Part shown: in pieces, positions 312 to 50,184 of the stretch
How the letters are laid out: each line of letters starts with the position of its first letter
Numbering within the stretch: the stretch's first letter is position 1
Assembly (NCBI RefSeq): GCF_000003815.2
Contig: NC_049993.1
Coordinates: 12,969,602-13,033,601, forward strand
DNA length: 64,000 nt
Source of the DNA: Branchiostoma floridae
Lineage: Eukaryota; Chordata; Leptocardii; Amphioxiformes; Branchiostomatidae
Direction of reading: 5' to 3'
Notes under the pieces: generated by a model
What the model was told of the DNA's origin: nothing
The model's input: only the letters and a program-made list of their open reading frames with translations
Databases searched by the model: none
Program-made: the position numbers and the translations under genes

Positions 312-3300
312 ATGTCTGCTTTTAAGAAACCATCAAGCCTAAATACAGGAGAGACAGACAAAAGAGGAGATAAGTGAGTACACGTATATGACGTATATGC
401 AACTCAAGTCAACCTCCTTGTTATGTGATCACGCAAGTTTAATACGTCACTCGAAAGTCTGCATGCCGTCGTCTGCGAGGGTTCGCTATGGTGGAACCCC
501 TATGGTGATCGCCCTATGTTCCGAAATCCCTATGTTCCGAAATCCCTATATTCCGAAATCCCTATATTCCGAAATCCCTATGTTCCGAAATCTCTATCGT
601 CTATGGAAGTGTTCCAACACACTAGTGTACCGACTGGCGTTGTACAGCGACCCGGGAGTGGACCAAAGCTACATAAGTCCAGGCTGCGGACACGCGGTCA
701 GCAAAATAGGAAGTTGCGGCCTATATATTATATCACGTTACCTTCTTTAATTATTCTCCTTTTTGTGTTATTTGGGATGTCTTGAAATCTGTTAAAACTA
801 TAATAATACCAACAGAGGACTAACGTTAGCTCCATTGCAGATTTTAGCCGCAAACTTTTGTTTAGGCAAACCTAAACGTGCACCATCGGCAAACATTTAA
901 ATGTATCATTTTTGTAACGCACCTTACCTCGTACCAGTTTGATAGCATCATAATTTCAATACAATTGACGAGGAAATGAAAAGATACACTAATGCATGAA
1001 AATGACATACGATATTTGCATGTATACTAAAAATTATTTTTAGATATCATAATTTCAATACAATTCTTGACGAGGAAATGAAAAGATACACTCATGCATG
1101 AAAATGACATACGATATTTGCATGTATACTATTTTTAGATATGTACGCGAGTATCTCGGTCACCCATAAGTCAATCAAAAACGAGACTAGGTAAATGGTT
1201 TACGTTAAATGTGATTAGCAAATGATAAAGTAAAGAAAATTTTCAGCATAAATTTGCGATTGAGTTTGGAGTCTTTGGACTTTGTTTCAGGTGCTAGAAA
1301 AAGGTTGAACTTTTATAAGTATTCTAGTTTATGTCTATAAATAAAAATAAACTAGAATTCGAATTTCAGGTGTTTTCAGCTCAGTGTGACCCATACGACC
1401 GTCGGAATCGGGTCGGCGTTCAGGCCAGTTATCATCGGGAAACTGCCTGGCTTCTTGGGTATTGGCTATCGACTTGTAAACGCCATCCATGTTACATGTA
1501 CATGATTATAGTTGTGTGTCACAATAGTTGTGTGTCAAAATTTCGGAACATAGAGATTTCGGAACATAGGGATTTCGGAACATAGGGATTTCGGAACATA
1601 GGGATTTCGGAACATAGGGCTTGAACCGGGTTGGCTATAGCTAGCCGCGGTACAATTCACCGATGTCGTTTGATCATACTGGCTGAAGCAACTTGCGTTT
1701 AACCTCCTTTGTTGCTGTCGACAAACTACCCACGAAGCGTAATTGTTTGCTTAAAATTCTAGTAATTTGCTATTCTCAGTGTTCTCGCCAGGATTTTTTC
1801 ACAGCGTCGGGCAGGGGTCCAGGACAAATCAGGCAATACAACCTCTTGTTTTGGCTTCTGTAAACTCTAAAATGACCATATCTGTGGGCTCGGGGGAGGG
1901 GGGGGGGGTTAAGTGATTGTTTGACATGGCTTAACCATGTAGGGAATGGGCAATTCGATTTAGCAGCCCCTCCCCTGAACTGAATGAAGTAAAATGTATA
2001 TATTAACCCATCCTCAACTTTTTTATTGTTAGATGTGGTAAATCATGTCTCAGCATTATCAAGAAGTATATATATTTTGACCCCATTTGGGGAAAAAGGA
2101 TTTGGTGTATGCATGAACTTCCCAGGTGTTTATTTTGGTCTTTTTGTATGTACATGTTGTGGTTTTGCTGGTAAGGTACCTGATATAAAAGATGTAAAAA
2201 CAAGAAAAATTTCTATTGCGAAGTTGAAATTTCACATCAAAGTAGTAGAACAGGATATGGTGAGTGCTAATTGACAGTTGTATTCAGACAAACAACATTG
2301 AAATTTGAGAAAAGTCATGTGATCTTAGCAGTGACTGCCCCAGTGACATACAAGTTATAGCATAGGGCCCATTGGCAGGGTATGGTTCTGGCTCTCAATT
2401 CCCAAGGGAACGATCAATGAACTTCATATTTTGGGAATATCATCACACCCCCTCAGTGTTTCAGCCAGGGGGGTAGAGATCTCTCAATCACCTTGCTGTG
2501 CTACCTGAAACGGGTGGGAAGAGCTTGATGCTTGGTTGGGTCAGTTATGTGTGTGGACATCATGATTATAACTTGACAAGTCGTGAATGAATCTTTATGG
2601 TATTTGGTTTGTGGTACTACACTGGAACTGTCGGCCTTTGTATGTTCTGGTCTGTGGGAGTAGTGGTATGTGTTTGTGTCTTGCCAACTTAGAGACGAGG
2701 CACCCCACACTGGGCATGACGATGTGCATATTCTGCAGTCTCCGGCTAATTCGCACCCTTGACACTATTTCTCCTTCACCAGGAAGGGGTGGGGTGGAGG
2801 TGGAGGTGTAGTCGGGGGACTCATCAGAATCTTTAGTCTTTTAGAAGACGTCCTAAGCATATTAAAGAGGACCAGAGTGTGCAAGAAAAGACAGACTGGA
2901 AAATAGAGAGGAGGTGATAGGCACACGTAACTTTAGAAAATGATGTCTTTCATCGGCCAAGCCGAAATCTTGGTGAATATATCTGTCTTCACTTTCCACC
3001 GACGATATTCCATCAAATATTTTTGTTTGTATTTTTCTTTTGCACAGTTTGGTCGGAAGATCTAGAAGGTCTCGTCTTGCCAGTCATACGCGGCAGACCA
3101 TCAATAGTGAACTCAACCTGAGCTTTCTCCTGCCAATTCATGCAACAGCTTCTTCTGCTGCGAAGGACGTCTTTCAACAAGATGCCCCCAAAGGTAGTCT
3201 CCCAGCCCGACACGTCACTGTTTCCTTCTTAGGAGATGCCAGAGCTGGAAAAACAAGTCTGGAAAAACACCTGCTCGATAAGTCCTTTGATTCTGTTGAA

Positions 3301-6300
3301 GAAGCGACGAAAGGACTTGAGTTTGATGTGGTACAGACAGATGTAACGGAGGTCAATGGAGGTTGGCAAACAGTACCTGAAAGGCCTTACAGTAGATATG
3401 ACACTGGCCGAGCCCAGTATGTTGGCAAAGAAATTTTGGAAGAAGCTGTACCCCTGGCCAATCAGCCGCTATTTAGACGACCAGTCGTGACTACGCTGTC
3501 CAACTTCGCAATGACCTGTTTTGTCATATTCATGCTTACGGCGCCAGTCGGTTTTCAACTGGGATTTGGTGTTGTCTTTTTATTAACGATGGGGATTTTC
3601 AAAATGTTAGGTCAGAGCTACAACGCTGCCATGAATAGTCTCATCATAACTGTTGCACACGTCTTTGGAAACTTTTTGATAAGAGATAGAGGGTTACTGA
3701 ATATCTTCTCGGCATTTGGTAACGAACAGTCGACCGCATATCCTTACCTTCAGTACGTTATGTTTGTTCTGACTATGATCCTGATCGCGTTTGTTGTGGT
3801 GTTGCCAAGCCATCCGGGTGGAACGACGGGCGCGACCCTGGCCTTCTGCTTAATGTGCTCACCTGCTCAGCTACATTCTGACAACTTCCCTTCAACTCTT
3901 CACTTGGCTCTAACTGGACCTATATGTCTTATGGCTGTCGCTACTTATTGTGGCACCGTGGCGTCATTTCTTAGCTGTTTGGCACCTACATCACTAATGC
4001 TGCTACTTACAACTTGGTATCTAACAGAATTTGCTGTCAGTTCCAAAGAAACGTTAGAGTACGTGCTGAGTTTGATTGCTGGATTTCTTATAGGAGCAAT
4101 GTTTGAAGTGACCGGCCGTACCATGGTAAGACTATGCAGTTCTTCTCGACGTGTTCTTCAATTGCAGATTTTTATGGGCCCGATAGGTTTTGTTTATGGT
4201 ATTGGATTGTGCTGGTTATTCGGCTGGCAGATGGTTTTGCCATCGACATGGAAAGATGCTTATTATATAGTGCCGAACATCATCGCCATATTCCTTATTG
4301 TACAGGTAGAAAGGCAAAGAGTGTATTGGGCGTCTCTAGAACTGCAAGGCTACCCCACCCTTCTTGTTAGAAGGAGCATCAAAACCTTAAAGGAAGGAAA
4401 GGATTTGCCTCTTAGGTTTACCCTGATTGACTTTGCCGGAGATGCTGTCTATCACTGCACACACCATCTGTTTCTATCCAGTCTCGCAATTCACCTGATT
4501 GTTTTCAACATGGAAAGATTAGAAAAGGAGCCCGAATATATAAGGCGCATTTGCTACTGGGTTCAGTCTGTAGTAGTTCACTTGAAAAACCCCAATCCTC
4601 ACATCTTCATTGTTGGAACACACTCAAAAAGCTTGCCTGAAGATAGGGTTAATTTCTTATCGCAGACTGTTAGCAAGGCATTGCTTAGCAATGAGAAATT
4701 TACTCAGTTCATTGTGGAAAAACCAGGTAGCCAAAACGATGTTGTGTTCTGCGTGGAAAACTCCATACCCATTCGAAAAGATGCACAGGCCCTCCTCCTT
4801 CGAAAAACCATTATGGAAGTCACTTCTTCGTCATTCCAAGCAAAGAGACAAGTTCCTATCAAGTGGCTCAAAGTCAGTGATTTCGTCAGTAAGTACAAAT
4901 CCAGTTCTACAGACACGTGTCTCCTGGACAAACGTACCTTGTTTGAAAAGCTGAGACAGGAAGGTGTTGTGGAGGCAGAAGATGTATGTGAGGCAGAAGA
5001 GTTCGAGGAGATGCTGAAGTTCTACGACGAAATCGGAGAGATTAAATCAATGGATGATGTTGTAGTCTTGAATCTGAAAGCTTTGGTTCAGCTTGTTGTA
5101 AAGCTTGTGGAGCTTGATTGTGATGATCATGAGCTTGGAATCGTTCATGTCAGTTCTTTGCGTAGAGTATGGAAATCTTTGACTGTAGAAAATTTCCTTT
5201 CCACCGTTGCGTTGTTCGAGAGATATGACATTCTCTGTCCGATCTCACAAGAGCAGTATCTCGTGCCCTTGCTCATTGAGACAGTAACTAAGAAAGGCAA
5301 GCAAGAGGCCGAGGAGACAGATCATGGTGCTTCAGCATTCTGGGACCCAGCAGATTCAGACACGGTGCTCTACTTCAAGTTCTACAGGTTCTACCCCGAA
5401 GCCATTTTCCTCCGTCTGCTTGCCCGATGTCTGTCAATATCACAGAAAACTCACGACCTTGGTCGTGGTGCTGACCGAGATGTCTACAGAAACATGGGAA
5501 GATTCTACCAGGGACATGATTTCTACTACAAAGTGGAGCTCGTGTGTCTATCTGTGGAGCAGAACATGATCCGGGTCACTGTCAAGTGTGCTCCAGACAG
5601 AGGTCCTCATTCTCTACTGTCCAGACTTCACAAGGACTTGCAGCAGATCCGAGACAGGCACTTCCCTTACCTGAACTACACAGTGGGGCTTCCATGCCCA
5701 TTGTGCCGTAGCAACTTGAAGGTAGAGAGAGACGGTCCTCCTCCACACATCCTGAGGATAGCAGGATATGACGAAGAGCTTCCACTACCTGGAAAGAAAG
5801 TAACTCTGATGTGTCGAGGAAAGGCCTTTGAGGTGGACTTGGGAAAACAAGTAAGTACCCAGTGTATTCCTCCGTATTTTAGTTTGCCCATTCTGTTGCC
5901 GAAATGTCAATGCATGTAAACGATTGTTGTAGGACTTACCAGCGGAGAATGTCTTGCCATTGGTTACCATGCAACTCCTATTTCCAACTCCTTTGTACGA
6001 TAATGAAAATCTTACCCAAAGCAACCCTTTATTCTAACATACAGCAACCGTCGTTGGACGTTGCCCAACCGGCGAAGATTGAAGAGGGCAGCAAAACATC
6101 TGCACAAGAAGGCAAGTTGGTATTTTGTACTTCAGCGTTTTTGTGCTATCATCAAACAACCTAATATGGTATATAGTGCATTACAAGAAACTACATGTAA
6201 ACTAAAGATAAAGAAATTGTCGTCCTTCTAAACAGGTGTTAGAGCTCTGTTGGACCCCAGCACCACCCAGCACCTGTCCATCCTCCTGGACCCTCCCGCA

Positions 6301-6519
6301 CCCATCTTTGGGAACAACTGGAGGGCGCTGGCTGACGAACTGGGGCTGTGCTTCCAGGACATCTGCTACATCGAGACCAAGCACAACCCAACAGAGATGG
6401 TGCTAGAAATGTATAGTAAGAATACACCAACAGCTAACACAGACCAAATCCACAGGGCTTTGTTAGACATAGACAGACCAGATGCTGCTGAACTGTTCCG
6501 GCCTACTTGTGCCACTTGA
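312..6519 (+). CDS. TRD1: transmembrane Roc-COR-Death protein, array copy 1
   Basis: Coding exons 312-373, 3048-5850, 6045-6111 and 6236-6519 join in frame to 1071 aa. All introns are GT-AG except intron 3, whose donor is GC at 6112. Seen: P-loop GDARAGKT at residues 83-90; G2-like TKG near 108; 8-10 hydrophobic segments over about 172-442; switch II DFAGD at 482-486; GTHSK at 544-548; a COR-like region about 625-815 (EMLKFYDEIGEI, VVVLNLKALVQLVV); CPLC at 904-907 with a further Cys at 943; Death domain about 990-1068 (NNWRALADELGL). Known: Roc-COR modules are GTPase/dimerisation units (LRRK, DAPK1, MFHAS1), and Death domains form homotypic signalling contacts. Inferred: a membrane-embedded GTPase adaptor. 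The GTH motif lacks the usual following Asp (THxD), so GTP specificity is uncertain. The start was chosen because it follows a conserved leader (AGCAAGATG) and its phase-2 donor fits exon 2. Confidence 0.85.
511..1620. mobile_element. Foldback-type element with inverted 16-bp tandem arrays
   Basis: About five copies of a 16-bp unit (CCCTATGTTCCGAAAT) at 511-597 face about five inverted copies at 1539-1620. Both arrays begin with GCCCTATG and end with a CTCTAT variant when read in the same sense, so they form a long inverted repeat around about 940 bp of non-coding DNA. It lies in intron 1 of TRD1 and is not apparent in intron 1 of TRD2 or TRD4. This looks like a non-autonomous foldback element. 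Target-site duplications were not identified. Confidence 0.55.
947..1140. repeat. Two-copy tandem repeat, about 99 bp
   Basis: Two head-to-tail copies (947-1045 and 1046-1140) share ATCATAATTTCAATACAATT and the motif CATGCATGAAAATGACATAC, with small indels between them. The repeat is AT-rich and non-coding, inside the putative foldback element of TRD1 intron 1. Confidence 0.75.
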
Positions 6520-8440: not shown

Positions 8441-11400
8441 ATGGCTGCTACAAGGAATTCGGCAGGTGACAAGGCTCGCAAGACCTACGAAACAACAGAT
8501 AAGTGAGTAAACTACCACGTTCTTACCGTACAGGACAACGAGAGCAATCGATTAACAGTTGGTCACAAGTATGTTCTATCATAATCAATGATATCCTGGG
8601 TACCAACCTAGTGACTGAACCGTGGCTTCCATACGGTAATACAACACCTTACTTTACTAGATAGTAAGGGGAGGCGGGGTGTATATTAACAGCACCGTAA
8701 ATCAAAGATGGACGACTTCTGGCTAAATCTACGCCTCGGTGTCGAAGTTGGAATTCTGTTCTCATCTTCCTACTTCCCTGATTTCTTATAGAATGAAATC
8801 AAGTTCAACACAAAGGATGAATCAAATCCGAAGGTGCTGGTATATTATTAAATAAGGGTGTGACATGATTTAGGTCTGCCTAATTTAAATTGATCCCTAC
8901 CATCTCCAAGAAGAGAAGGGCTCCGATCAACGCACCATGAAACGAGTGGGAAGAGCTTGTTGCTTGGTTGGGTTTATGTGTGTACGTAGACATCATGATT
9001 ATAACTTGACAAGTCGTGGATGGATCTTTATGGTATTTGGTTTGTGGTTCTACACTGGAACTGTCGGCTTTTGTATGTTCTGGTCTGGGGGAGTAGTGGT
9101 ATGTGTTTGTGTCCTGTCAACTCCATGTGAACTTAGAGACGAGGTACCCCACACTGGGCATGACGATGTGCATGACTAAGCTTGTACAATTCTGCAGTCT
9201 TCGGCTAATCCGTACCCTTGACACTATTTCTCCTTCACCAGGAAGGTGTGGGGTGGGGTTGGGTGGTGTGGGGTTGGGTGGGGTGGAGGTGTAGTCGGGG
9301 GACTCATCAGAATCTTTAGTCTTTTAGAAGACGTCCTAAGGATATTAAAGAGGACCAGAGTGTGCAAGACAAGACAGACTGGAAAATAGAGAGGAGGTGA
9401 ATAGGCACACGTAACTTTGGAAAATGATGTCTTTTATCGGCCAAGCCGAAATCTTGGTGAATATATCTGTGTTCACTTTCCACCGACGATATTCCATCAA
9501 ATATTTTTGTTTGTATTTTTCTTTTCCACAGTTTGGTCGGAAGAAGGTCTCGTCTTGCCAGTCATACGCGGCAGACCATCAATAGTGAATTCAACCTGAG
9601 CTTCCTGCTGCCAATTCATGCAACAGCTTCCTCTGCTGCGAGGGACGTCTTTCAACAAGATGCCCCCAAAGGTAGTCTCCCAGCCCGACAAGTCACTGTT
9701 TCTTTCTTAGGAGATGCCAGAGCCGGTAAGACAAGTCTGGAAAAACACCTGCTCGATAAGTCCTTTGATTCCGTTGAAGAAGCGACTAAAGGACTAGAGT
9801 TTGATGTGGTACAGACAGATGTAACGGAGATCAATGAAGCTTGGCAAACAGTACCTGAAAGGCCTTACAGTAGATATGACACTGGCCGAGCCCAGTATGT
9901 TGTCAAAGAAATTTTGGAAGAAGCTGTACCCCTGGCCAATCAGCCGCTATTTAGACGACCCGTCTTGACTACGCTGTCCAACTTCGCACTGACGTTTGCG
10001 GTGATTTTCATGATTCTGTCGGGGCCAGTCGGTTTTCAACTGGGACTTGGTGTTTTCTTTTTACTAACGATGGGGATTTTCAAAATGTTCGGTCAGAGCT
10101 ACAACGCTGCCATGTATAGTCTCATCATGACTGCTGGACACGTCGTTCTAAACTACTTGATAAGAGATATAGGGTTACTAAATATCTTCTCGGCATTTGG
10201 TAACGAACAGTCGACTGCGTATCCTTACCTTCAGTACGTTATGTTTGTTCTGACTATGATCCTGATCGCGTTTGTTGTGGTCTTGCCAAGCCATCCGAGT
10301 GGACTGCCGTGTATGGCCCTGGCCTTCTGCTTAATGTGTTCACCTGCTCAGCTACATTCTGAGAACTTCCCTTCAACTCTTCACTTGGCTCTAACTGGTC
10401 CTATATGTCTTGGGGCTGCCGCTACTTATTGTGGCGTCGTGGCGTCATTTCTTAGGTGTTTGGCACCGACATCACTAATGCTGCTACTTACAGCTTGGTA
10501 TCTAACAGAATTTGCTGTCAGTTCCAAAGAAACGTTAGAGTACGTGCTGAGTTTGATTGCTGGATTTATTTTAGGAGCAATGTTTGAAGTGACAGGCCGT
10601 ACCATGGTAAGACTATGCAGTTCTTCTCGACGTGGTCTTCAATTGCAGATTTTTATGGGCCCGATAGGTTTTGTCTATGGTATTGGATTGGGCTGGTTAT
10701 TCGGCTGGCAGATGGTTTTGCCATCGACATGGAAAGATGCTTATTACATTGTGCCAAACATAGTCGCCATATGCCTTATTGTACAGGTAGAAAGGCAAAG
10801 ACTGTATTGGGCGTCTCTAGAACTACAAGGCTACCCCGCCCTCCTTGTTAGTAGGAGCATCAAAACCTTAAAGGAAGAAATGGATTTGCCTCTTAGGTTT
10901 ACCCTGATTGACTATGCCGGAGATACTGTCTATCACTGTACACACCATCTGTTTTTATCCAGTCTCGCAATTCACCTGATTGTCTTCAACATGGAAAGAC
11001 TAGAAAAGGAGCCCGAATATATAAGGCGCATTTGCTACTGGGTTCAGTCTGTAGTAGTTCACTTGAAAAACCCCAATCCTCACATCTTCATTGTTGGAAC
11101 ACACTCAAAAAGTTTGCCTGAAAATAGGGTTAATTTCCTATCGCAGACTGTTAGCAAGGCATTGCTTAGCAATGAGAAATTTACTCAGTTCATTGTGGAA
11201 AAACCAGGTAGCCAAAACGATGTTGTGTTCTGCGTGGAAAACTCCATACCCATTCGAAAAGATGCACAGGCCCTTCTCCTTCGAAAAACCATTATGGAAG
11301 TCGCTTCTTCGTCATTCCAAGCAAAGAGACAAGTTCCTATCAAGTGGCTCAAAGTCAGTGATTTCGTTAGTAAGTACAAATCCAGTTCTACAGATACGTG

Positions 11401-12990
11401 TCTACTGGACAAACGTACCTTGTTTGAAAAGCTGAGACAGGAAGGTGTTATTGAGGCAGAAGATGTATGTGAGGCAGAAGAGTTCGAGGAGATGCTGAAG
11501 TTCTACGACGAAATCGGAGAGATTAAATCAATGGATGATGTTGTAGTCTTGAATCTGAAAGCTTTGGTTCAGCTTGTTGTAACGCTTGTGGAGCTTGATT
11601 GTGATGATCATGAGCTTGGAATCGTTCATGTCAGTTCTTTGCGTAGAGTATGGAAATCTTTGACTGTAGAAAATTTCCTTTCCATCATTGCGTTGTTCGA
11701 GAGATATGACATTCTCTGTCCGATCTCACAAGAGCAGTATCTCGTGCCCTTGCTCATTGAGACAGTAACTAAGAAAGGCAAGCAAGAGGCCGAGGAGACA
11801 GACCATGGTGTTTCAGCATTCTGGGACCCAGCAGATTCAGACACGGTGTTCTACTTCAAGTTCTACAGGTTCTACCCCGAAGCCATTTTCCTCCGTCTGC
11901 TTGCCCGATGTCTGTCAATATCACAGAAAACTCACGACCTTGGTCGTGGTGCTGACCGAGATGTCTACAGGAACATGGGCAGATTCTACCAGGGACATGA
12001 TTTCTACTACAAAGTGGAGCTTGTGTGTCAATCTGTCGATCAGAACATGATCCGGGTAACTCTCAAGTGCGCTCCAGGCAGAGGTCCTCATTCTCTACTT
12101 TCCAGACTTCACAAGGACTTACAGCAGATCCGAGATAGGGACTTCCCTTACCTGAACTACACAGTGGGGCTTCCATGCTCAGTGTGCCATTCACTTAACA
12201 ACGAGGGAGAGAGGGACCGGCCTACTTCACATATCCTGAGGATAGCAGGACATGGCGAAGAGCTCCCACTACCTGGAGAGAAAGTGACTCTGATGTGCCG
12301 AGGAAAAGCCTTTGAGGTGGATTTTGGAAAAGGAGTGAGTACCTGGTATCTTGTTTGTCCTTTGTTAGAATCAAAGAATACGTTAGGTTGATTTTTTGCA
12401 AACACAAATTGCAATTCAAAATTTAAGAGAAAAGTCACAAAAAGACCATTTATATATTTCAAAATCTGAATGAGGTAAAATAACCTGCAACGCACCTTCT
12501 CCTTCCCATAGCAACCGACACTGGATGCTGCCCAGCCGACGAAGACTGGAGAAAGTAGCAATACCTCTGAACAGAAAAGTAAATATGTTGCCATTTTCAA
12601 TCTCAATTTTTGTTAGTTTTCTACCACTACGTTAAAACTATCTAGAGCGTTGTCAGAATAGAAAGCAAGTTCCCTTTTCTCCAAACAGGTGTTAGTGCTC
12701 TGTTGGACCCCAGCACCATCCAGCACCTGTCCATCCTCCTGGACCCTCCCGCACCCATCTTTGGGAACAACTGGAGGGCGCTGGCTGACGAACTGGGGCT
12801 GTGCTTCCAGGACATCTGCTACATCGAGACCAAGCCCAACCCGACAGAGATGGCACTAGAAATGTATCGTAAGAATACACCAACAGCTAACACAGAACAA
12901 GTCCACAGGGCTTTGTTAGACATAGACAGGCCGGATGCCGCTGAACTGTTTCAACCTACTAGTGTCGAATCACAAGGAACAACTCAATGA
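8441..12990 (+). CDS. TRD2: transmembrane Roc-COR-Death protein, array copy 2
   Basis: Exons 8441-8502, 9532-12334, 12512-12578 and 12689-12990 join in frame to 1077 aa. Exon 2 is exactly as long as in TRD1 (2803 nt). All donors are GT, including intron 3, unlike TRD1, TRD3 and TRD4. Domain order matches TRD1: P-loop GDARAGKT, multi-pass hydrophobic block, DYAGD switch II (Phe to Tyr), GTHSK, COR-like region, CSVC zinc-type pair, Death domain. The C-terminus (ending ESQGTTQ) differs from TRD1 and TRD3 and resembles TRD4. The head is of the TRD1/TRD4 type, while introns 2-3 and exon 3 are of the TRD5 type, so this copy is mosaic. The reading frame is intact and the gene is probably functional. 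Confidence 0.85.
9241..9292. repeat. G-rich minisatellite in TRD2 intron 1
   Basis: The stretch has repeated GGGGTTGGGTGG-type units. The homologous place in TRD1 intron 1 (about 2781-2808) has a shorter GGGGTGGAGGTG tract, and TRD4 lacks it. It could form G-quadruplex structures, but a length polymorphism is the simplest reading. Confidence 0.6.
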
Positions 12991-15099: not shown

Positions 15100-18000
15100 A
15101 TGGCCATGGTTGCAGCCCAAGGAAGAACTGGAAAGACGCATGAGACTCTGGTCAAAGAAGACAAGTGAGTTTGCTATCATTGGGCGTTGCGCCACTAAAA
15201 TACAATCTAGCTGCGGCTGGTAAACTGATTGAATCAAGCCTCGTTCAAGTGACATGTCTTCCAGAGCCGACGACAGGTTCACACAGTATCGATATTTATG
15301 TTACGAGGGGTGTTTAAACAATTGGTGGAGCCAAAATATCCCAGCATTATTTTGTAGTTGTATTGGTATTTTGGATTTGATGTACGTTGCTTTTCTCAAT
15401 GAAACAGTTACATGCACCGCTATACCGAACGTCAGTTCCACCTTTGAGTTAGGCATTCTTGTTTTAATGCTACTAGCTAGCTAACATTGACCCGTCATTG
15501 GCAAGATCATAAAAATCCTAATGCGTTAACAAATTTTAATTTTTGGGGGGGGGGGGGGGGGCAAATACGGATCCAAATTTGATGAAGAATTTCAACCATC
15601 ACGAAAAATGTTTGAGGAAGTTTGTGCTCTCTTGGTTAGCAGTAGTTCCTCATGATTGCGTCTCATGCGGACTAGTGTTTGCGCAACGTCACACATGTGA
15701 TCGCACTTGCCAATATCAGGTGTCTCCCTAGTTTTGTAGGTTAGAACTGTGTGTTGGTACTTACATTTGTAACTGATCTTACCACCAGCCGCACACCTTT
15801 TGTCGTTAGTACGTTATTCTGGTTACATCTGGACATATATTTACTAATCTATACAGTAACTATACCCTTCACTGTACCACTTAAATGTCCATAATTTTCT
15901 TTCTCCATGCAGTTCAGCCGAGAAACGGCCACTCGTAGCCAGTCAAGCTTGGCAGACCGTCAATAGTGAACTGAATCTGAACTTCCTGCTGCCACACAGC
16001 CTGGCCAGTACCTCTGCTGCCAGGGACGCGTTTCAACAAGACGCCACCGGAGGCAGCTTACCAGCCCGACACAGCACCGTTTCGTTCCTCGGAGATGCCA
16101 GAGCTGGTAAGACAAGTCTGGAAAAACACCTGCTCGATAAGTCGTTTGATCCCGCTGAAGAACCGACGAAAGGGCTTGAGTTTGATTTAGTACAAACAGA
16201 TGTCACGGAGGTCAATGAAGGCTGGCAAACAGTACACGAAGAGCCCTACAGTAGATATAATACCGGCCGCGCCCAGTATGTAGCCCAAGAAATTTTAAAA
16301 CAGGCTGAGTCCGTTGTCAATCGCCCACTATTTCCACGACCAGCCGTGACTGCGTTGTTGAACTACGCGCTAACTATTGCGGTGATTGTCATTGTTCCCG
16401 GGTCAGTCGGTTTTCAACTGGGATTCGGTGTTGTGTTTTTGCTTGTAGCGGGGATTGTGAAAATGTTCGGCCAAAGAAACAATGATGGAATTTACATAAG
16501 TATATTATTCGTCATCGGCGATTGTTATGTAAGAAGAAATGGCTTCCTCAATATCTTCCTCTTATTCGGGAATAACCAGTCAGTGGGGTATCCACATCTT
16601 CAGTACTTTCTGTTTGCCATTGCCGCAGTGGTACTTTCGTTTCTCCTTGTAATGCTGTGGCCGATGGGAGTAAAACCTGGCATAGCCCTGGCCTTCTGCC
16701 TCATGTGCTCGCCTTCACAACTACATCTGGACGAAGTACCTTCACAGCTTCACTTGATTGTAGATGGGCCGACAAATATTTTCGCTGCCGCTGATCTTTT
16801 GAGTGTCATCTCATGTAGTAGATGCTTTACTTCGGCATTACTTGCGCTGGTACCAGCAGTTTGGGGGATCGCGAATGTTGCGATCGACGCCAGTGAACAT
16901 ATAAACTACATACTCAGTTTCGTTGGTGGGTTTGTAATTGGTGCAACTGATACCGCGTGTTATCATATCATTCCGAAACTGTGCAATTCCTATCGAGATG
17001 TGCTTCAATTACAAATCTTCATGGGTCCAATAGGTTTTGTCTACGGCCTTGTCATGGGCTGGTTCTTTGGCTGGCGGATGGTTCAGCCATCCACATGGCA
17101 AGATGCTTATTATATGGTGCCAAATATGGTAGCCTTGCTTATTCTTGTACAAGTAGAAAGGCAAAGGGCGTATTTGGCATATCAAGAAATGGGAAGCTAT
17201 CCTTCATTTCTAATCAGTAGGAGCATCCAAACCATGAAACAAGTGAATGATTTGCCTCTTAAATCTACCCTGATTGACTTTGCAGGAGATACTGTCTATC
17301 ACTGTACACATCATCTTTTTCTATCAAATTTCACAATTCACCTGATTGTCTTCAACATGGAAAGATTAGACCAGGAGCCAGACTATATAAGACGTATTTG
17401 CTACTGGGTCCAGTCGGTAATTGTTCACGTGCAAAACCCCAATCCTCACATTTTCATTGTTGGAACACACAAGAACAGTTTGACTAAAGATAGGAGTAAT
17501 TTCTTATCGCAAAAGGTAAGCAAGACATTGCTTAGCAATGAGACATTTACTCAGTTCATTGTGGGAAAACCAGGTAGCCAAAATGATGTTGTGTTCTGCG
17601 TGGAAAACTCCATACCCCTTCGTAAGGATGCGCAGGCCCGTCTCCTTCGTAAAACCGTTATGGATGTGGCCCATTCGTCCTTCCAATCCAAGAAACACGT
17701 CCCTATCAAGTGGCTCAAAGTCAGTGACTTAATCAGCAAGTACAAATCTAGTTCTACAGACACGTGTCTCCTGGACAAACGTACCTTGTTTGAAAAGATG
17801 AGGCAGGAAGGTGTTGTTGAGGATGAAGAGTTGGGAGAAGAGTTTGAAGAGATGCTGACGTTTTATGACGAAATCGGAGAGATCAAGGTCATGGATGATG
17901 TTGTAGTCTTGAACCTGAAAGCCTTGGTTCAGCTTGTTGTAAAGCTTGTGGAGATTGATTGTGACGATCATGAGCTCGGAATAGTTCACGTCAGTTCTTT

Positions 18001-19363
18001 GCGCAGAGTATGGACATTTTTGACAGCGGAGAATTTCCTGTCCACCATTGCACTCCTCGAGAAATATGACATCTTCTGTCCGATCTCACAAGAGCAGTTT
18101 CTCGTGCCCTTGCTTCTCGAAACAATTGACTTGACTATGGCAAAGAAAGACAAACAAGACACCAAGGTGACTAATCATGGTGCCTCGGCATTTTGGGACC
18201 CAACAGATTCGGACACGATTCTCTACTTCAAGTTTTACAAGTTCTACCCCGAAGCCATTTTCCTCCGTCTGCTTGCCCGATGTCTGTCAATATCACAGAA
18301 GACTCACGACCTTGGCCGTGGTGCTGACCGAGATGTCTACAGAAACATGGGCAGATTCTACCAGGGACATGATTTCTACTACAAAGTGGAGCTCGTGTGT
18401 CAGTCTGTGGAACAGAACATGATCCAGGTCACTGTCAAGTGTGCTCCAGACAGAGGTCCTCATTTTCTACTGTCCAGACTTCACAAGGACTTGCAGCAGA
18501 TCCGAGACAGGGACTTCCCTTACCTGAACTACACGGTGGGCCTTCCATGCCCAGCGTGTAGTTCATTTAACAACCGTAAAGGAGAGCACGAGTTTGCTCC
18601 CCCACACATCCTGGGGATAGCAGGACATGACGAAGAGCTCCCACAACCCGGAGAGAAAGCAACTCTGCTGTGCCGAGGTAAAGCCTTTGAGGTGGACCTG
18701 GGAAAACAAGTGAGTACCTAGTGCAGTCCTCCGTATTTTAGCTAGGTTGCCCATGTTGTTGTGAAATGTCGATGCATGTAAATCATTGCTGCAGGACCTA
18801 CCGGCGGAGAATGTCTTGTTATTTGTTACCAACTCCTATTTCCAACTCCTTTGTGCTATAAAGAATAACTTACCAAGCAACCCTTTATTTCAACAGCAAC
18901 CGTCTTTGGACGTTGCCCAACCGGTGAAGATTAAAGAAGGCAGCAAAACATCTGCACAAGAAGGCAAGTTGGTATTTTGTACTTCAGCGTTTTTGTGCTA
19001 TCATCAAACAACCCATATAGTGCATTGCAAGAAACGACATATAAACTCAACATAAAGATATTGTCGTCCTTGTAAACAGGTGTTAGAGCTCTGTTGGACC
19101 CCAGTACCACCCAGCACCTGTCCATCCTCCTGGACCCTCCCGCACCCATCTTTGGGAACAACTGGAGGGCGCTGGCTGACGAACTGGGGCTGTGCTTCCA
19201 GGACATCTGTTACATCGAGACCAAGCCCAGCCCAACAGAGATGGTGCTAGAAATGTACCGTAAGAATACACCAACAGCTAACACAGATCAAATCCACAGG
19301 GCTTTGTTAGACATAGACAGACCAGATGCTGCTGAACTGTTCCGGCCTACTTGTGCCACTTAA
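15100..19363 (+). CDS. TRD3: transmembrane Roc-COR-Death protein, hybrid copy 3
   Basis: Exons 15100-15164, 15913-18709, 18897-18963 and 19080-19363 join in frame to 1070 aa. Exon 2 is open throughout, although no in-frame ATG is present near its start, so the exon-1 ATG is needed. P-loop GDARAGKT, hydrophobic block, DFAGD, GTHKN (no Asp), COR-like region, CPAC pair and Death domain are present. Exon 1 and most of exon 2 are closest to TRD5 (same MA-rich first exon and the same VINRPLFPRPAVT-type stretch). Intron 2, exon 3 with its GC donor (18964), exon 4 and the 3' flank match TRD1. This is the structure expected of a fusion made by unequal crossing-over between a TRD5-like and a TRD1-like gene. 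The frame is intact. Confidence 0.85.
15545..15561. repeat. 17-base G homopolymer in TRD3 intron 1
   Basis: A run of 17 G replaces the three G of the homologous intron of TRD5 (about 29822). It could be a real mononucleotide expansion or sequencing noise. Confidence 0.8.
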
Positions 19364-21283: not shown

Positions 21284-24200
21284 ATGGCTGCTACAAGGAA
21301 TTCGGCAGGTGACAAGGCTCGCAAGACCTACGAACCAACAGATAAGTGAGTAAACGACTACGTTCTTACCCTACAGGACAACGAGAGCGATCGATAAACA
21401 GTTGGTAACAAGTATGTCCTATCATTATCAATGATAACATGGGTACCAACCTAGTGACTGAACCGTGGCTTCCATACGGTAATACCACACCTTACTTTAC
21501 TAGATAGTAAGGGGAGGCGGGGTGTATACTAACAGCCCCGTAAATCAAAAAGTTGGACGACTTCTGGCTAAATCCACGCCTCGGTGTCGAAGTTGGAAAT
21601 ACCTGTACTCATCTTGTTACTTCCCTGTCTCATAAAATGAAATCAAATTCAATACTAGAGTTCGGCGACGTCATACCTCCATGAAAATTTAGAGCTTTCG
21701 TAAATTTCATGCAATTGACTAAGACATTAACATAATTCATGCATGGTGTTGTTCATCATTGACAAACGTACACATGTCACAATTATAAAATTCCCATTAT
21801 TAAGCATTAAGCGGTTTTGCAATTTTTACATAAATTATGCAAATAAGTTCCTCATTACCATATTTGGTATCTGCTTATATTCCACCTGTCATAATTAACA
21901 TGTGTTACATTTATTGAAGTCCAGTTATTGAAAACAATGGAATTATACAATTTCCTGATTAATTATGCAAATTAAGTCCTTATTTGCATAACATGTATAT
22001 CATTATGAACATCTTTGCTTAAGGTACCCGCATGCCTAATATGATGCCAATCCGTCAATCCTTTCTGCAGTTATCCTCTTTGGAATGTCTCGAAAAAAAC
22101 GCCCCTGCAGTTCCAAAATTAAATGTTAGGGGGCTGAAGCTTGCCCCACTTTGTCATGACACTGAAAGCTATCTACCACCCAAGTTTCAAGACCATATCA
22201 CGTCCAAGACAAGAGATACATAGGAAAAACTGCTATGATTGAATGTTGTCATTAATTATGCAAATTTTCTCCTATTTTGCATAATTAGTATCTTATCTTG
22301 TAAAACATTGTCTGAGGTACCTACATACCGAAAATCATGAAAATCCGTTGTTCCCTTCTTGAGTTATCCTCTTCAGAAGTTTTTGACAAAAATGCCCCTG
22401 CTATCCCAAAACTAGACGCTAGGGAGCCCAAACTTATGTCATTTCTTCCTGAGCACAAGAGCTATCTAATACTCAAAAATCGTGACCATAGCATGTTCAG
22501 AACACCAAGATAGCAAAACCGGAAGTTGCGCTGCAGTACCAAGGGGAGCTGCTAGGGGGCCCAAAATCTAATCATTTCCAGCTTTCATCACACCCTACTA
22601 ACACACCAAGTATCAAACCAATCCACCCAGCCGTTCTTGAGTTATCTTGTTTACACACACAGACACACAGGCAAACGCGGGGTAAAATATAACCTCCATG
22701 ACATTTCATGGAGGTAAATATAACCTCCATGACATTTCATGGAGGTAACAAGTGATAACTCAAATAAGGGTGTGACATGATTTAGGTTTGATCCTAATTT
22801 AAATGGATCGCTACCCTCTCCAAGAAGAGAAGGGCTCCGCTCGACGCACCATGAAACGGGTGGGAAGAGCTTGTCACGTTGGTTGGGTTGATGTGTGTAC
22901 GTGGACATCATGATTATAACTTGACAAGTCGTGAATGGATCTTTGGTTTGAGGTACTGCACTGAAACTGTCGGCCTTTGTCATGTTCTGGATATGCTATG
23001 TCATGGGTTTCGGATGGCAGCTAGTTTGGGTCTCGGGGAGAAGTGGTATGTGTTTGTGTCCTGTCAACTCCATGTGTATTTAGAGGTACCCCAGAAATGC
23101 ACACTGTTCATGACGATGTGCATGACTAAGCTTATACAATTCTGCATTCTGATCCGTACCATTGACACTGAAGACGTCCTAAGCATATAAAACAGGACCA
23201 GAGTGTGCAAGACAAGACAGACTGGAAAATAGAGAGGAGGTGATAGGCACACATAACTTTGGATTATCATGTCTTTCATCGGCCAAGCCGAAATCTTGGC
23301 AAATATCTGTCTTCACTTTCCACCGACGATATTCCATCAAATATTCTTGTTTGTATTTTTCTTTTCCACAGTTTGGTTGGAAGAAGGTCTCTTCTTGCCA
23401 GTCATACGCGGCAGACCATCAATAGTGAACTCTACCTGAGCTTCCTGCTGCCAATTCATCCAACAGCTTCCTCTGCTGCCAGGGACGTCTTTCAACAAGA
23501 TGCCCCCAAAGGTAGTCTCCCAGCCCGACACGTCACTGTTTCCTTCTTAGGAGATGCCAGAGCCGGTAAGACAAGTCTGGAAAAACACCTGCTTGATAAG
23601 TCCTTTGATTCCGTTGAAGAACCGACTAAAGGACTAGAATTTGATGTGGTACAGACAGATGTAACGGAGATCAACGAAGCTTGGCAAACAGTACCTGAAA
23701 GGCCTTACAGTACATATGACACTGGGCGAGCCCAGTATGTTGGCAAAGAAATTTTGGAAGAAGCTGTACCCCTGGCCAATCAGCTGTCCAACTTAGCACT
23801 GACCTTAGTGGTCATAACCATGCTTACGGTGCCAGTCGGTTTTCAACTGGGATTTGGTGTTGTCCTTTTATTAACGATGGGGATTTTCAAAATGTTCTGT
23901 CAGAGCTACAACGCTGCCATGTATAGTCTCATCATAACTGTCGGACACGCCTTTGTAAACTTCTTGATAAGAGATGGAGGGTTACTGAATATCTTCTCGG
24001 CATTTGGTAACGAACAGTCGACAGCGTATCCTCACCTTCAGTACGTTATGTTTGTTCTGACTATGATCCTGATCGCATTTGGTGTTTGGTGTTTAGTGTT
24101 GCCAAACCATCCGGGTGGAATGCCGTGTTTGGCCCTGGCCTTCTCCTTAATGAGCTCACCTGCTCAGCTACATTCTGACAACTTCCCTTCAACTCTAATC

Positions 24201-26810
24201 TTGGCTCAAACTGGACCTATATGTCTTCTGGTTGCCGCTGCTTTTTGTGGCGCCGTGGCGTCATTTCTTAGGTCTTTGGCACCGACATCACTAATACTAC
24301 TACTTACAGCTTGGTATCTAACAGAATTTGCTGTCAGTTCCAAAGAAACGTTAGAGTACGAGCTGAGTCTGATTACTGGATTTATTTTAGGAGCAATGCT
24401 TGAAGTGACAGGCCGTACCATGATAAGACTATGCAGCTCTTCTCGACGTGTTCTTCAATTGCAGATTTTTATGGGCCCGATAGGTTTTCTCTATGGTATT
24501 GGATTGTGCTGGTTATTCGGCTGGCAAATGGTTTTGCCATCGACATGGAAAGATGCTTATCATATAGTGCCGAACATTATCGCCATATTCATTATTGTAC
24601 AGGTAGAAAGGCAAAGAGTGTATTGGGCGTCTCTAGAACTACAAGGCTACCCCGCCCTTCTTGTTAGTAGGAGCATCAAAACCTTAAAGGAAGAAAAGGA
24701 TTTTCCTCTTAGGTTTACCCTGATTGACTTTGCCGGAGATGCTGTCTATCACTGCACACACCATCTGTTTCTATCCAGTCTCGCAATTCACCTGATTGCT
24801 TTCAACATGGAAAGACTAGAAAAGGAGCCCGAATATATAAGGCGCATTTGCTACTGGGTTCAGTCTGTAGTAGTTCACTTGAAAAACCCCGATCCCCACA
24901 TCTTCATTGTTGGAACACACTCAAAATGTTTGCCTGCAGATAGGGTTAATTTCCTATCGCAGACTGTTAGCAAGGCGTTGCTTAGCAATGAGAAATTTAC
25001 TCAGTTCATTGTGGGAAAACCAGGTAGCCAAAACGATGTTGTGTTCTGTGTGGAAAACTCCATACCCATTCGAAAAGATGCACAGGCCCTTCTCCTTCGA
25101 AAAACCATTATGGAAGTCGCTTCTTCGTCATTCCAAGCAAAGAGACAAGTTCCTATCAAGTGGCTCAAAGTCAGTGATTTCGTTAGTAAGTTCAAATCCA
25201 GTTCTATAGACACGTGTCTCCTGGACAAACGTACCTTGCTTGAAAAGCTGAGACAGGAAGGTATTATTGAGGCTGAAGATGTATATGAAGCAGAAGAGTT
25301 TGAGGAGATGATTAGGTTCTACGACGAAATCGGAGAGATCAAGGTCATGGATGATGTTGTAGTCTTGAATCTGCAAGCTTTGGTACAGCTTGTTGTAGAG
25401 CTTGTGGAGCTTAATTGTGATGGTCATGAGCTTGGAATCGTTCATGTCAGTTCTTTGCGCAGAGTATGGAAGCACTTAACAGCAGAGAGTTTCCTTTCCA
25501 CCATTACGTTATTCGAGAGATATGACATTCTCTGTCCGATCTCACAAGAGCAGTATCTCGTGCCCTTGCTCATTGAGACGGTAACTAAGAAAGGCAAGCA
25601 AGAGGTCGAGGAGACAGATCATGGTGCTTCAGCATTCTGGGACCCAGCAGATTCAGACACGGTGCTCTACTTCAAGTTCTACAGGTTCTACCCCGAAGCC
25701 ATTTTCCTCCGTCTGCTTGCCCGATGTCTGTCAATATCACAGAAAACTCACGACCTTGGTCGCGATGCTGACCGCGATGTCTACAGAAACATGGGCAGAT
25801 TCTACCAGGGACATGATTTCTACTACAAAGTAGAGCTTTTGTGTCAATCTGTCGATCAGAACAGATCCGGGACACTGTCAAGTGCGCTCCAGGGCAGAGG
25901 TCCTCATTCTCTACTTCCCAGACTTCACAAGGACTTACAGCAGATCCGAGACAGGGACTTCCCTTACCTGAACTACACAGTGGGGCTTCCATGCTCAGTG
26001 TGCCGTACAACCACGAGGGAGAGAGAGACCGTCCTCCTCCACACATCCTGAGGATAGCAGGACATGACGAAGAGCTCCCACTACCCGGAGAGAAAGTTAC
26101 TCTGATGTGCCGAGGAAAAGCCTTTGAGTTAGACCTGGGAAAACAAGTGAGTACCCGTATTCCTCCATATTTTAGGTTGTCCATTCTGTTGCCGAAATGT
26201 TGATGCACGTAAAAAAATTCTGTAGGACTTACCAGTGGATAATTTCTTGCCATTGGTTACCTTGCAACTCCTATTTCCAACTCCTTTGTACGATAACTTA
26301 CCAAGCAACCCTTTATTCTAACATACAGCACCCGTCTTTGGACGTTGCCCAACCGGCGAAGATTGAAGAGGGCAGCAAAACATTTGCACAAGAAGGCAAG
26401 TTGGTATTTTGTACTTCAGCGTTTTTGTGCTGTCATGAAACAACCCATATAGTGCATTACAAGAAACTACATGTAAACTCAAGATAAAGAAATTGTCCTT
26501 CTAAACAGGCGTTAGAGCTCTGTTGGACCCCAGCACCACCCAGCAACTGTCCATCCTCCTGGACCCTCCCGCACCCATCTTTGGGAACAACTGGAGGGCG
26601 CTGGCTGACGAACTGGGGCTGTGCTTCCAGGACATCTGCTACATCGAGACCAAGCGCAACCCGACAGAGATGGTTCTAGAAATGTATGGTAAGAATACAC
26701 CAACAGCTAACACAGACCACGTCCACAGGGCTTTGTTAGACATAGACAGACTGGATGCCGCTGAACTGTTTCAAACTACTAGTGTCGAATCGCAAGAAAC
26801 AGCTCAATGA
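21284..26810 (+). pseudogene. TRD4: frameshifted Roc-COR-Death copy 4
   Basis: Exons by homology: 21284-21345, 23372-26146, 26329-26395 and 26509-26810; the intron 3 donor is GC (26396). Against TRD1 and TRD2, exon 2 has lost one base near 25864 and gained one near 25892, scrambling about ten residues and then restoring frame. It shifts again near 26005, giving a stop at 26049-26051 before the zinc-type stretch is finished. The Death exon is therefore out of frame. There is also an in-frame loss of ten codons before the first hydrophobic segment (about 23783) and a short insertion near 24080. P-loop, DFAGD and GTHSK are intact. It is either a recent pseudogene, a truncated protein without Death domain, or a locally poor consensus. 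Confidence 0.75.
21673..22748. mobile_element. Insertion with ATACCTCCATGAAA ends, TRD4 intron 1
   Basis: Starts with ATACCTCCATGAAA and ends with two copies of AACCTCCATGACATTTCATGG followed by GAGGTAA. The ends are inverted repeats. TRD2 intron 1 lacks it at the matching place (near 8815-8850). It has repeated TTATGCAAAT motifs, is AT-rich and encodes nothing. Another member sits in TRD5 intron 1. It is a non-autonomous element of unrecognised family. Confidence 0.65.
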
Positions 26811-38600: not shown

Positions 38601-40177
38601 GATGGGAGAAGAATTTGAAGAGATGCTGAAGTTTTACGACGAAATCGGAGAGATCAAGGTCATGGATGATGTTGTAGTCTTGAATCTGCAAGCTTTGGTT
38701 CAGCTTGTGATAGAGCTCATGGAGCTTGATTGTGATAACCATGAGATTGGAATCGTCCATGTTAACTTTCTGCGCAGAGTATGGAAATTCATGACAGTGG
38801 AGAATTTCCTTTCCACGATCGCACTGTTCGAGAAATATGACATTATCTGCCCGATTTCACAAGAGCAGTTTCTCGTGCCCTTGCTTCTTGAGACTTGTGA
38901 TGAGACCACGGCGAAAAAAGACAAGCAAGAGGAATCAGATAATGGTACTCCCGCATTCTGGGACAGATCAGATTCGGACACGGTCGTATACTTCAAATTC
39001 TGCAAGTTCTACCCCGAGGCCATCTTTCTGCGTCTGCTTGCCCGATGTCTGTCAATATCACAGAAAACTCACGACCTTGGCCGTGGTGCTGACCGAGATG
39101 TCTACAGAAACGTGGGCAGATTCTACCAGGGACATGATTTCTACTACAAGATCGAGCTCGTGTGTGAACCCCTGGAGCAGAACATGATCCAGGTCACAGT
39201 CAAGTGTGCTCCAAACAGAGGTCCTCATTCTCTACTGTCCAGACTTCACAAGGACTTACAGCAGATCCGAGACAGGGACTTCCCTTACCTGAACTACACA
39301 GTGGGGCTTCCATGTCCAGCCTGCAGTACATCCAATGACAGGAAAGGAGAGAATCAGCTTGTTCCTCCACACATCCTAAGGATAGCAGGACATGACGAAG
39401 AGCTCCCATGCCCTGGACAGAAAGCATCTCTGCTTTGTCGAGGTAAAGCCTTTGAGGTCGACCTGGGAAAATCTGTAAGTACCTGGCGTTTTACTTCCTC
39501 AGTTAGGATACTTTAATATGAGTATCAGTTGTTTTTGCCAATGCAAATGACTTGAAAGAAGGCACATTATATTAAAACCCAAATGAGATAAAATAACCAG
39601 CATAACATTTGTTCATTCCAACAGCAAGCAACGCTGAATGCTGCCCCGCTGTCGAAGATTGGAGAAAGCAACAAAACGTCTGAGCAAAAAAGTATGTTGG
39701 TGTATTTTCTACCTCTATTTTTGTTAGTTTGCTACTGCCATTCCAATGTCAACACGACTATCTAATGCCTTAAGATCTGTAACTTGCCCAGCAAGAAGGA
39801 CTGACACGTACGTGACATACAGTCTTCTAACTAATTATAGATGAATGTCAGAAAACAACTTGTTGTTCTTTTACACAGGTGTTAGTGGTTTCCTGAACCA
39901 CAGCACCATCCAGCACCTGTCCATCCTCCTGGACCCTCCCGCACCCATCTTTGGGAACAACTGGAGGGCGCTGGCTGACGAACTGGGGCTGTGCTTCCAG
40001 GACATCTGCTACATCGAGACCAAGCACAACCCAACTGAGAAGGTTCTAGAAATGTATGCTACAAATACACCAACACCAAGTGTGCAACAAGTACACAAAG
40101 CCTTGATGGACATTGATAGGCTAGATGCTGCTGGACTTATTGACTCTGTTTCAGATCATAAACCTCCAACAAAATGA
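35662..40177 (+). CDS. TRD6: transmembrane Roc-COR-Death protein, copy 6, gapped
   Basis: Exons 35662-35729, 36714-39474, 39625-39691 and 39879-40177. All donors are GT. A 426-base run of N at 36965-37390 removes switch I and the first hydrophobic segments. Just before the gap, one base seems to be missing near 36930 (CTGCTGAGAAG where paralogues have CTGCTCGATAAG), probably poor sequence at the contig end. After the gap the frame is open: hydrophobic segments, DFAGD (about 38047), GTHSS (no Asp), COR-like region, CPAC pair and Death domain. It is the most diverged copy in exon 2, yet the first half of its Death exon is almost identical to the others. Poly(A) signals AATAAA lie at 40397 and 40401. 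It ends the array. Confidence 0.75.
36177..36230 (+). pseudogene. Relic of a TRD first exon in TRD6 intron 1
   Basis: AGCAAGATGGCTACT... aligns with the first exons of TRD2 and TRD4 (leader, ATGGCTGCTACAAGGAATTC region and about 100 bases of intron after it). It runs into TGA after 17 codons and has lost the donor. It is the remains of an additional or replaced gene head. Confidence 0.7.
36965..37390. other. Assembly gap (426 N)
   Basis: Run of N inside TRD6 exon 2. The length is a multiple of three and matches the amount of coding sequence missing against TRD1-TRD5, so it is probably an estimated gap. Confidence 0.95.

Positions 40178-47078: not shown

Positions 47079-50184
<3,106 letters not shown>

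Follow-up and report, generated by a model that had tools for sequence, protein, structure and literature searches.

Tandem genes with an interrupted Roc domain

The stretch of the Branchiostoma floridae genome considered here (contig NC_049993.1, positions 12,969,602 to 13,033,601 of the forward strand; 64 kb, referred to as the window) contains six tandem copies of one gene, named TRD1 to TRD6, the main exon of each lying in an open frame that spans 934-980 codons between stops. Their architecture is very probably that of a Roc domain split by a multi-helix membrane block and followed by COR and a death-fold module. The features of the array are listed below in window coordinates, with a slash marking splice junctions, Roc-N and Roc-C denoting the two halves of Roc and TM standing for transmembrane.

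312..373, + strand: TRD1 exon 1, start codon plus 20 codons; donor AA/GTGAGT, phase 2
3048..5850, + strand: TRD1 exon 2, with Roc-N, membrane block, Roc-C and COR on a single open exon; acceptor TTTTTCTTTTGCACAG/T, donor CAA/GTAAGT
3214..3339, + strand: TRD1 Roc-N, with beta1, P-loop GDARAGKTS at 3232, alpha1, G2 threonine and beta2
3340..3483, + strand: TRD1 linker preceding TM1, assumed cytosolic from the family alignment and the topology program
3484..4308, + strand: TRD1 hydrophobic, putative membrane block, 6-10 TM segments depending on method; differs among copies
4309..4404, + strand: TRD1 linker after TM10, assumed cytosolic on the same basis
4405..4848, + strand: TRD1 Roc-C, with beta3, switch II DFAGD at 4429-4443 and G4 GTHSKS at 4615-4632, through alpha5
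4849..5850, + strand: TRD1 COR-A and COR-B with CxxC; PF16095 and PF25497, both under cut-off
6045..6111, + strand: TRD1 linker exon 3, GC donor
6236..6519, + strand: TRD1 Death domain exon 4 with stop codon, PF00531 2.7e-12
9532..12334, + strand: TRD2 exon 2, layout as TRD1; Death exon 12688-12960
15913..18709, + strand: TRD3 exon 2, layout as TRD1; Death exon 19079-19360
23372..26051, + strand: TRD4 exon 2, split Roc present, end set at stop; Death exon 26508-26780
31157..33947, + strand: TRD5 exon 2, layout as TRD1, THxD kept; Death exon 34330-34599
36714..39474, + strand: TRD6 exon 2; Death exon 39878-40141

The acceptor, donors and splice phases of TRD1 are mutually compatible. The gene model begins about 80 residues ahead of the P-loop with a short, charged exon in which no signal peptide is apparent on visual inspection. 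An ATG exon with a donor at the equivalent position occurs in TRD1, TRD3, TRD4, TRD5 and the outlying members C1 and C8, a comparison that excludes TRD2, of whose exon 1 the coding part alone was examined. Roc-N was delimited by PF08477 (profile positions 2-45) and by the modelled strands 55-62 and 90-97, Roc-C by a second PF08477 stretch, a match to the LRRK2 Roc-COR structure in the PDB and modelled strands and helices, and COR additionally by the LRRK2 match, which reaches residue 767, and by Foldseek matches to LRRK/Roco structures. Linker exon 3 was matched in all six copies (weakly in TRD6, E 0.096) and the Death exon was found in all six. The TRD4 reading frame (window 23247-26051) is disturbed close to the end of COR-B, and TRD6, whose exon 1 has no normal donor, contains an assembly gap from just past the P-loop through TM4. 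Given this gap, the complete split is visible in five window copies, TRD1-5, which are the copies in which the original prediction, made from the window's sequence alone, had reported it. The Pfam scan of the family exons returned no kinase or ankyrin match, and no leucine-rich repeat (LRR) or kinase was found in them.

A search of the 513,431,437 bases of the genome found twelve family loci, the six of the window and one each on C1, C2, C8, C12, C17 and C18, by which names these members are called here. The layout thus reaches beyond the array, recurring in three divergent lineages of the genome (C12, C17, C18).

The two halves of Roc

The P-loop (3232) and switch II (4429-4443) of TRD1, both at the coordinates first reported for GDARAGKT and DFAGD, lie 399 residues apart within one open exon, and 367 residues, close to the predicted 365 or so, separate TKGLEFD (exon-2 residues 87-93) from DFAGD (461-465). 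The distance from G1 to G3 is 383-405 residues in all eight full-length members (TRD1-5, C1, C8, C12). When TRD1, TRD3 and TRD5 were scanned with hmmscan, each gave two Roc PF08477 stretches, with E-values of 1.7e-11, 1.2e-11 and 3e-13 and with the best stretch at profile positions 2-45, 2-47 and 44-119, respectively. C12 likewise has two stretches, the better at 48-119, while C17 matches 2-46 and 47-119 in two exons, one stretch in each, and C18 matches 1-46 and 53-119 in two frames; the Pfam Roc domain is interrupted at profile position 44-53 in all four lineages (TRD, C12, C17, C18). In C17 and C18, where the halves occupy separate exons or frames, both presumably belong to a single gene. 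PF08477 is over cut-off in the three scanned TRD copies and in the main exons of C12, C17 and C18, and the motifs GDxxxGKTS, T(K/V/E)G and D(F/Y)AGD (G1, G2, G3) are kept in every lineage.

The remainder of Roc, the COR-like region, the CxxC stretch and the Death domain, proposed to follow switch II, were recovered through PF08477, the LRRK2 match and PF00531 (2.7e-12), with the COR rows of TRD1 under cut-off. COR-A is under the Pfam cut-off in all three scanned TRD copies and over it in C17 and C18; COR-B is listed in two of the three and over cut-off in TRD3 alone; for C12, which has no COR profile row, COR was assigned from the family alignment. The profile searches suggested along with the original prediction hence bore it out for Roc and Death, with COR partly under cut-off. 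Against the PDB, the family profile matched LRRK2 (1.1e-21) and, as two separate stretches, 4wnr, an archaeal Roc structure.

Ordinary Roc domains have the short link between beta2 and beta3 that had been assumed for them. G1 and G3 are 46-51 residues apart in 15 of 18 other Roco loci of the same genome, nearly all of them chosen for a contiguous Roc match and so not a random sample; the other three comprise a break at an assembly gap, a 39-residue fragment and a locus without a frame. Members of the split family, at 383-405 residues, lack the contiguous Roc of the Roco family. None of 64 prokaryotic Roc-COR proteins (the remainder of 80 loci after 10 were dropped for length and 6 as near-copies) has residues at TRD1 positions 101-380 in a MAFFT alignment, where the block appears as one insertion; 4 residues of each row (5-9 in three rows) stray into positions 381-420. 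The Roc model finds at least 147 places in the genome, at least 52 of them covering at least 117 of the 119 positions in one frame, and ordinary Roco genes, their Roc contiguous, form clusters on C3, C14 and C191.

At six further places with a Roc break near position 46, what can be read are short exons resembling Rab or Ras, without TM segments, three of them with DTAGQE motifs, and an intron seems to lie between beta2 and beta3; two TM segments were called there solely in unrelated short frames of the C7 stretch. Such an intron is frequent in Ras- and Rab-type genes of this genome (C5, C6, C18, C2, C7, C15; L117-L122), and this common intron point might be the route by which the block arose. 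A place on C7 (C7:14105973) with the C-half of Roc only was suspected to be another split gene and was rejected, its frame running through LRR, an assembly gap and Roc-C. An assembly chimera as the source of the split was also rejected, since members on other contigs share it. The comparisons support the view that the halves are complementary parts of one Roc domain, apparently parted by a coding, conserved hydrophobic block.

Coding status and character of the block

The frame of the block contains no stop codon in any of five copies, where shuffled sequences would have 17.6-18.0, and none of 500 shuffles is open. The ratio of nonsynonymous to synonymous substitution rates (dN/dS) of the block is 0.24-0.50 in eight of ten pairs, and that of Roc-N is 0.04-0.28 across all ten; by these estimates the block is under purifying selection in diverged copies. 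In eight of ten pairs the block exceeds COR in synonymous divergence as well, which fits an exchange of the flanks between copies. The hydrophobic stretch could in principle be an intron retained in frame, or an artefact of prediction, the mature Roc being contiguous, and the length of the exon, the reading of the gene from genomic sequence alone and the intron that ordinary Ras-family genes here often carry at the same point would agree with this. Opposed to it are the five open frames and the dN/dS of at most 0.50 in eight of ten pairs, the lack of any splice donor above 7/9 in the first part of the block in the four copies scored (the real exon-2 donor scores 8), the same split in C12 at about 30% identity, and C17, in which hydrophobic sequence adjoins both halves in separate exons, behind Roc-N in one and ahead of Roc-C in the other. 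The open frame, the selection, the missing strong donor and the recurrence led to rejection of this explanation as extremely improbable.

A simple topology program based on hydropathy and the positive-inside rule, run at a loose setting, finds 10 segments in the block of seven of the eight full-length members and 8 in TRD5, as well as 9 in the two pieces of C17 and 8 in the two pieces of C18, where there is an assembly gap. It favours an inner C-terminus in all eight full-length members; the even number of passes that had been postulated is in this way favoured by one simple program, short of a demonstration. The charge bias is weak, with more lysine and arginine in inner than in outer loops in seven of eight and equal numbers in TRD5. 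Loops in the chosen assignment do not exceed 24 residues and so leave no ectodomain, and the traits of TNFR-type receptors, that is a signal peptide, a cysteine-rich ectodomain and a single TM segment, are not those of the family. The block presumably spans the membrane, with a topology that may be as assigned.

No convincing relative of the block was found in PDB, Pfam or NCBIfam. Weak matches to TM7S3_TM198 (0.78), FUN14 (0.4), glpT (9.7e-5, one of seven blocks) and XapX (0.017, two of seven blocks) were judged to be chance or hydrophobic bias, and hhalign detected no internal repeat (E 0.23). Compared block against block, C17 and C1 are detectably similar (E 3e-5).

Relatives and C-terminal modules

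On Roc-C and COR alone, nine members form a single clade with support 100/100, in a tree that left out TRD4, TRD6 and C2, included 15 Roco genes from outside the family and 11 from prokaryotes, and drew a long-branch warning from the program. At the level of sequence, this tree demonstrates common descent of the Roc-COR part. A query made of Roc-N and the first helices of C17 found 11 places (E<=0.1), all of them family members; on plasmids nothing matched the Roc-C and COR part of C17. COR-only matches to the C17 member (query from about 231) occur on C10, C18, C19, C6, C176 and others in frames of 388-511 residues and possibly represent a further Roco group. The C2 copy lies in two frames and is broken inside the membrane block (L013 2454-5311).

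The module behind COR differs by lineage. C17, like the window copies, has a Death exon (PF00531 1.1e-8), while C12 has a CARD exon (PF00619 1.5e-12; L009:6127-6444) and C18 has caspase exons on the same strand (PF00656 9.5e-9 and 5.1e-19). The latter, at L012:6567-6806 and 7287-7571, contain SHGGDEG and QACRG, and a fusion of split Roc, COR and caspase is possible for C18. From exon order, strand and the splice phases of TRD1, the death-fold and caspase exons probably belong to the transcripts of the split-Roc genes.

Variation among copies

DNA identity profiles in 200-base windows with TRD1 as reference reveal a marked contrast between block and tail. Between TRD1 and TRD3, identity is 58-59% at mid-block and 83-96% from switch II through COR. 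For TRD1 and C8, which lie on different chromosomes, it is 54-61% in most of the block and 76-93% between switch II and residue 867; the surroundings of the exon-2 end and the introns give 62-74%, and the Death core reaches 94%. Over the comparisons of TRD1 with TRD3, TRD5, C1 and C8, identity is 54-74% in most of the block, 76-96% from switch II through most of COR and 91-96% in the Death core. By these profiles the membrane block appears as the variable, fastest-changing part of the family, a pattern that would be expected for a variable sensor on a constant output. In the TRD-type copies, conservation among the helices is highest in TM2, TM9 and TM10, while TM3, TM6, TM7 and outer loop 4 vary most.

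The TRD copies are mosaics, since TRD3 has a block like that of TRD5 and a tail like that of TRD1, while TRD2 has a tail like that of TRD5. Linker and Death tails are swapped between copies (window 12512-12960, 18897-19360 and 34125-34599), which suggests that gene conversion or unequal crossing over has taken place. Lone decayed Death-like pieces (window 7488-7628 and 20352-20471) sit in a 2 kb segment, 98% identical, downstream of TRD1 and TRD3.

The direction of control might also be the reverse, with the block as a transporter or channel gated by Roc-COR and the death-fold end recruiting regulators without sending a death signal. Short loops of at most 24 residues without an ectodomain would suit a channel or carrier, as would the conservation of TM2, TM9 and TM10, and one of seven blocks weakly matches a transporter model (21.6 bits, with a cut-off of 632.55). 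However, neither PDB nor Pfam gave a transporter match and NCBIfam gave just that weak one, no other part changes as fast as the block, and the downstream exons encode death-fold or caspase modules in all four lineages, so that this explanation is considered quite unlikely.

Structure models and points against the reading

An AlphaFold model computed with five window rows and 64 prokaryotic rows reached a mean predicted local distance difference test score (pLDDT) of 58.3 and a predicted template modelling score of 0.55. It places strands 55-62 and 90-97, a run of helices, and strands 456-462, 481-487, 518-524 and 565-568 in Ras order. Ten-residue windows average 63-84 across Roc for the most part, drop to 50 where beta2 ends and lie at 39-46 over 551-580. 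In Foldseek, all 32 matches with E<=1e-3 are LRRK1, LRRK2 or Roco entries. The model is consistent with one Ras-order sheet around the block, and the two halves probably pack into one domain. If they did not, Roc-N might be a vestigial P-loop fragment and Roc-C a part of COR. That nothing folded in the model from window rows only, and that the presence of Roc-N in the Foldseek alignments is not visible from the table, would be in keeping with this, but the halves are complementary and hardly overlap, both are constrained and both occur in four lineages, and we consider this alternative very unlikely.

Several observations weigh against a split Roc working as a membrane-coupled switch and must be kept in view. 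With the six window rows alone AlphaFold failed (pLDDT 32.8), and in the better model the membrane block is unreliable (pLDDT 30-62). The prokaryotic Roc rows of that model span both halves, with 4-9 residues per row misplaced into the block, and because they do so the model speaks for compatibility and is not independent proof. The original interpretation, for which a structure prediction had been proposed, is partly supported: complementary Roc parts and a Ras-order model agree with one fold, and nucleotide binding, its coupling to the membrane block and Death signalling are conjectural. At a strict cut-off (mean Kyte-Doolittle hydropathy of at least 1.6 over 19 residues) the TRD1 block has 6 segments, with one elsewhere in the exon, so that the 8-10 segments first proposed hold under the permissive program and not under the strict rule; in each member that program places another two segments in COR, and these are judged false. 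The dN/dS of the block is 0.58 for TRD1-TRD2 and 0.94 for TRD1-TRD4, the two closest comparisons of TRD1, the latter involving the copy with the disturbed downstream frame. No similarity between blocks was detected for C12 and TRD3, C18 and C17, or the second half of C17 and TRD2; as the cross-lineage comparisons are mostly null, position and hydrophobicity are also needed to argue for a shared origin of the block. Finally, and as the chief doubt about the mechanism, the G4 aspartate of THxD is absent in seven of the eight TRD-type copies (TRD1-6, C1, C8), which makes nucleotide use in these copies uncertain.

At this G4 position there is lysine in TRD1, TRD2, TRD4 and C2, asparagine in TRD3 and C8, and serine in TRD6 and C1; THxD is kept in TRD5, the sole such TRD-type copy, and in C12, C17 and C18. 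Nucleotide switching may therefore be altered or lost in the copies whose sequence lacks the aspartate. The Roc-COR part could then be a pseudo-GTPase scaffold, a dimerising frame without nucleotide switching in which the block is an anchor and protein clustering drives Death assembly. Apart from the lysine, asparagine or serine at G4 in seven of eight copies, this explanation can point to switch II, which reads D(F/Y)AGD in the family and DFGGQ in the prokaryotic rows. It has to contend with the P-loop, the G2 threonine and D(F/Y)AGD being kept in every copy sequenced there, with THxD in TRD5, C12, C17 and C18, and with a Roc-N dN/dS of 0.04-0.28 in ten pairs. We hold it to be unlikely.

Other features of the window

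Adjoining the array is a CFAP91-like exon of a cilia gene (window 47004-48566, PF14738 6.3e-63), and a long repetitive region at 54861-56358 is open in several frames.

A possible receptor mechanism

As an explanation of the whole, a multipass membrane Roco receptor has a somewhat better than even claim. A membrane domain of about ten helices would be inserted at the beta2-beta3 hairpin of Roc, between the G2 threonine and switch II, with both ends of the bundle attached to the two nucleotide-sensing switches; because G2 (87) and switch II (461) flank the insertion, bundle motion could act on both. The variable bundle would sense a ligand or the state of the membrane, its rearrangement would open or close the Roc switch and alter Roc-COR pairing, and the Death, CARD or caspase modules, according to lineage, would be brought together to start death or inflammatory signalling. 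Sensing, allosteric coupling, dimerisation and output are each conjectural steps, and for the mechanism as such, in which a sensor within the membrane drives the Roc switch and the assembly of death folds, the chances are judged slightly short of even. A wider proposal is more tentative still: the polytopic sensor built into the Roc hairpin may be a new receptor class that acts as an intramolecular exchange factor, joins a rapidly diversifying membrane part to interchangeable outputs (Death, CARD or caspase) and serves lancelet innate immunity as a repertoire of membrane-state or ligand sensors; it would have been born when membrane-coding sequence entered a Ras-family intron point.

Relation to known systems and significance

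Roc-COR is the module mutated in Parkinson disease LRRK2. In Roco proteins such as LRRK2, C. tepidum Roco and M. barkeri Roco2, Roc is followed by COR as in the split family, but their own Roc is contiguous, whereas the split family has a hydrophobic block between G2 and G3. DAPK1 is a Roco protein with a Death domain; the DAPK family carries a calcium/calmodulin kinase and ankyrin repeats before Roc, neither of which is matched in the split-family exons. Insertion into a Ras fold has a precedent in heterotrimeric G-alpha, where a whole helical domain is inserted and is important for nucleotide release. That insert, however, is soluble, lies before beta2 and acts with a separate receptor, in contrast to the predicted membrane bundle considered here. 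FeoB and other membrane GTPases combine a G domain and a polytopic membrane domain in a single chain, although in FeoB-type proteins the membrane part comes after the G domain, which it interrupts in the split family. We know of no Ras-like G domain interrupted by a multipass membrane domain.

The open literature, as far as its texts were available and including PMC8195603 and PMC8075586, yielded no description of a polytopic block inside Roc and no Roco protein of this layout, as the original prediction had held, annotated protein databases lying outside this scope. Trichoplax ROCOs combine Roc-COR with death-fold modules, and the available part of that paper mentions no membrane segment in Roc, unlike the split family (PMC4104024). 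Brown algal ROCOs are candidate immune receptors (PMC11378527; for Ectocarpus, PMC4104024) with non-conserved insertions in ROC and C-terminal parts resembling transmembrane proteins (PMC11378527, PMC4104024). Their diversity lies in LRR exons and the membrane-like portion at the C-terminus; the accessible passages of these sources mention no polytopic block within ROC. In amphioxus itself, TNFR-caspase shortcut receptors join a membrane receptor directly to a death output, as is proposed here, and the searched text of that paper contains neither the word GTPase nor Roc (PMC2575513). In another study, no domain is more over-represented than Death among the dispensable genes of B. floridae and B. 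belcheri (PMC12373286).

Ras-like G domains rank among the best-studied folds. If the two halves pack as one domain, movement in the membrane would act directly on switches I and II without a separate receptor or exchange factor, and the split family would offer a direct test of how membranes can drive a Roc-COR unit. The association of a split Roc with death modules suggests a new kind of membrane sensor driving death or immune signalling, and a diversified receptor family with interchangeable death outputs would extend the immune repertoire of lancelets.

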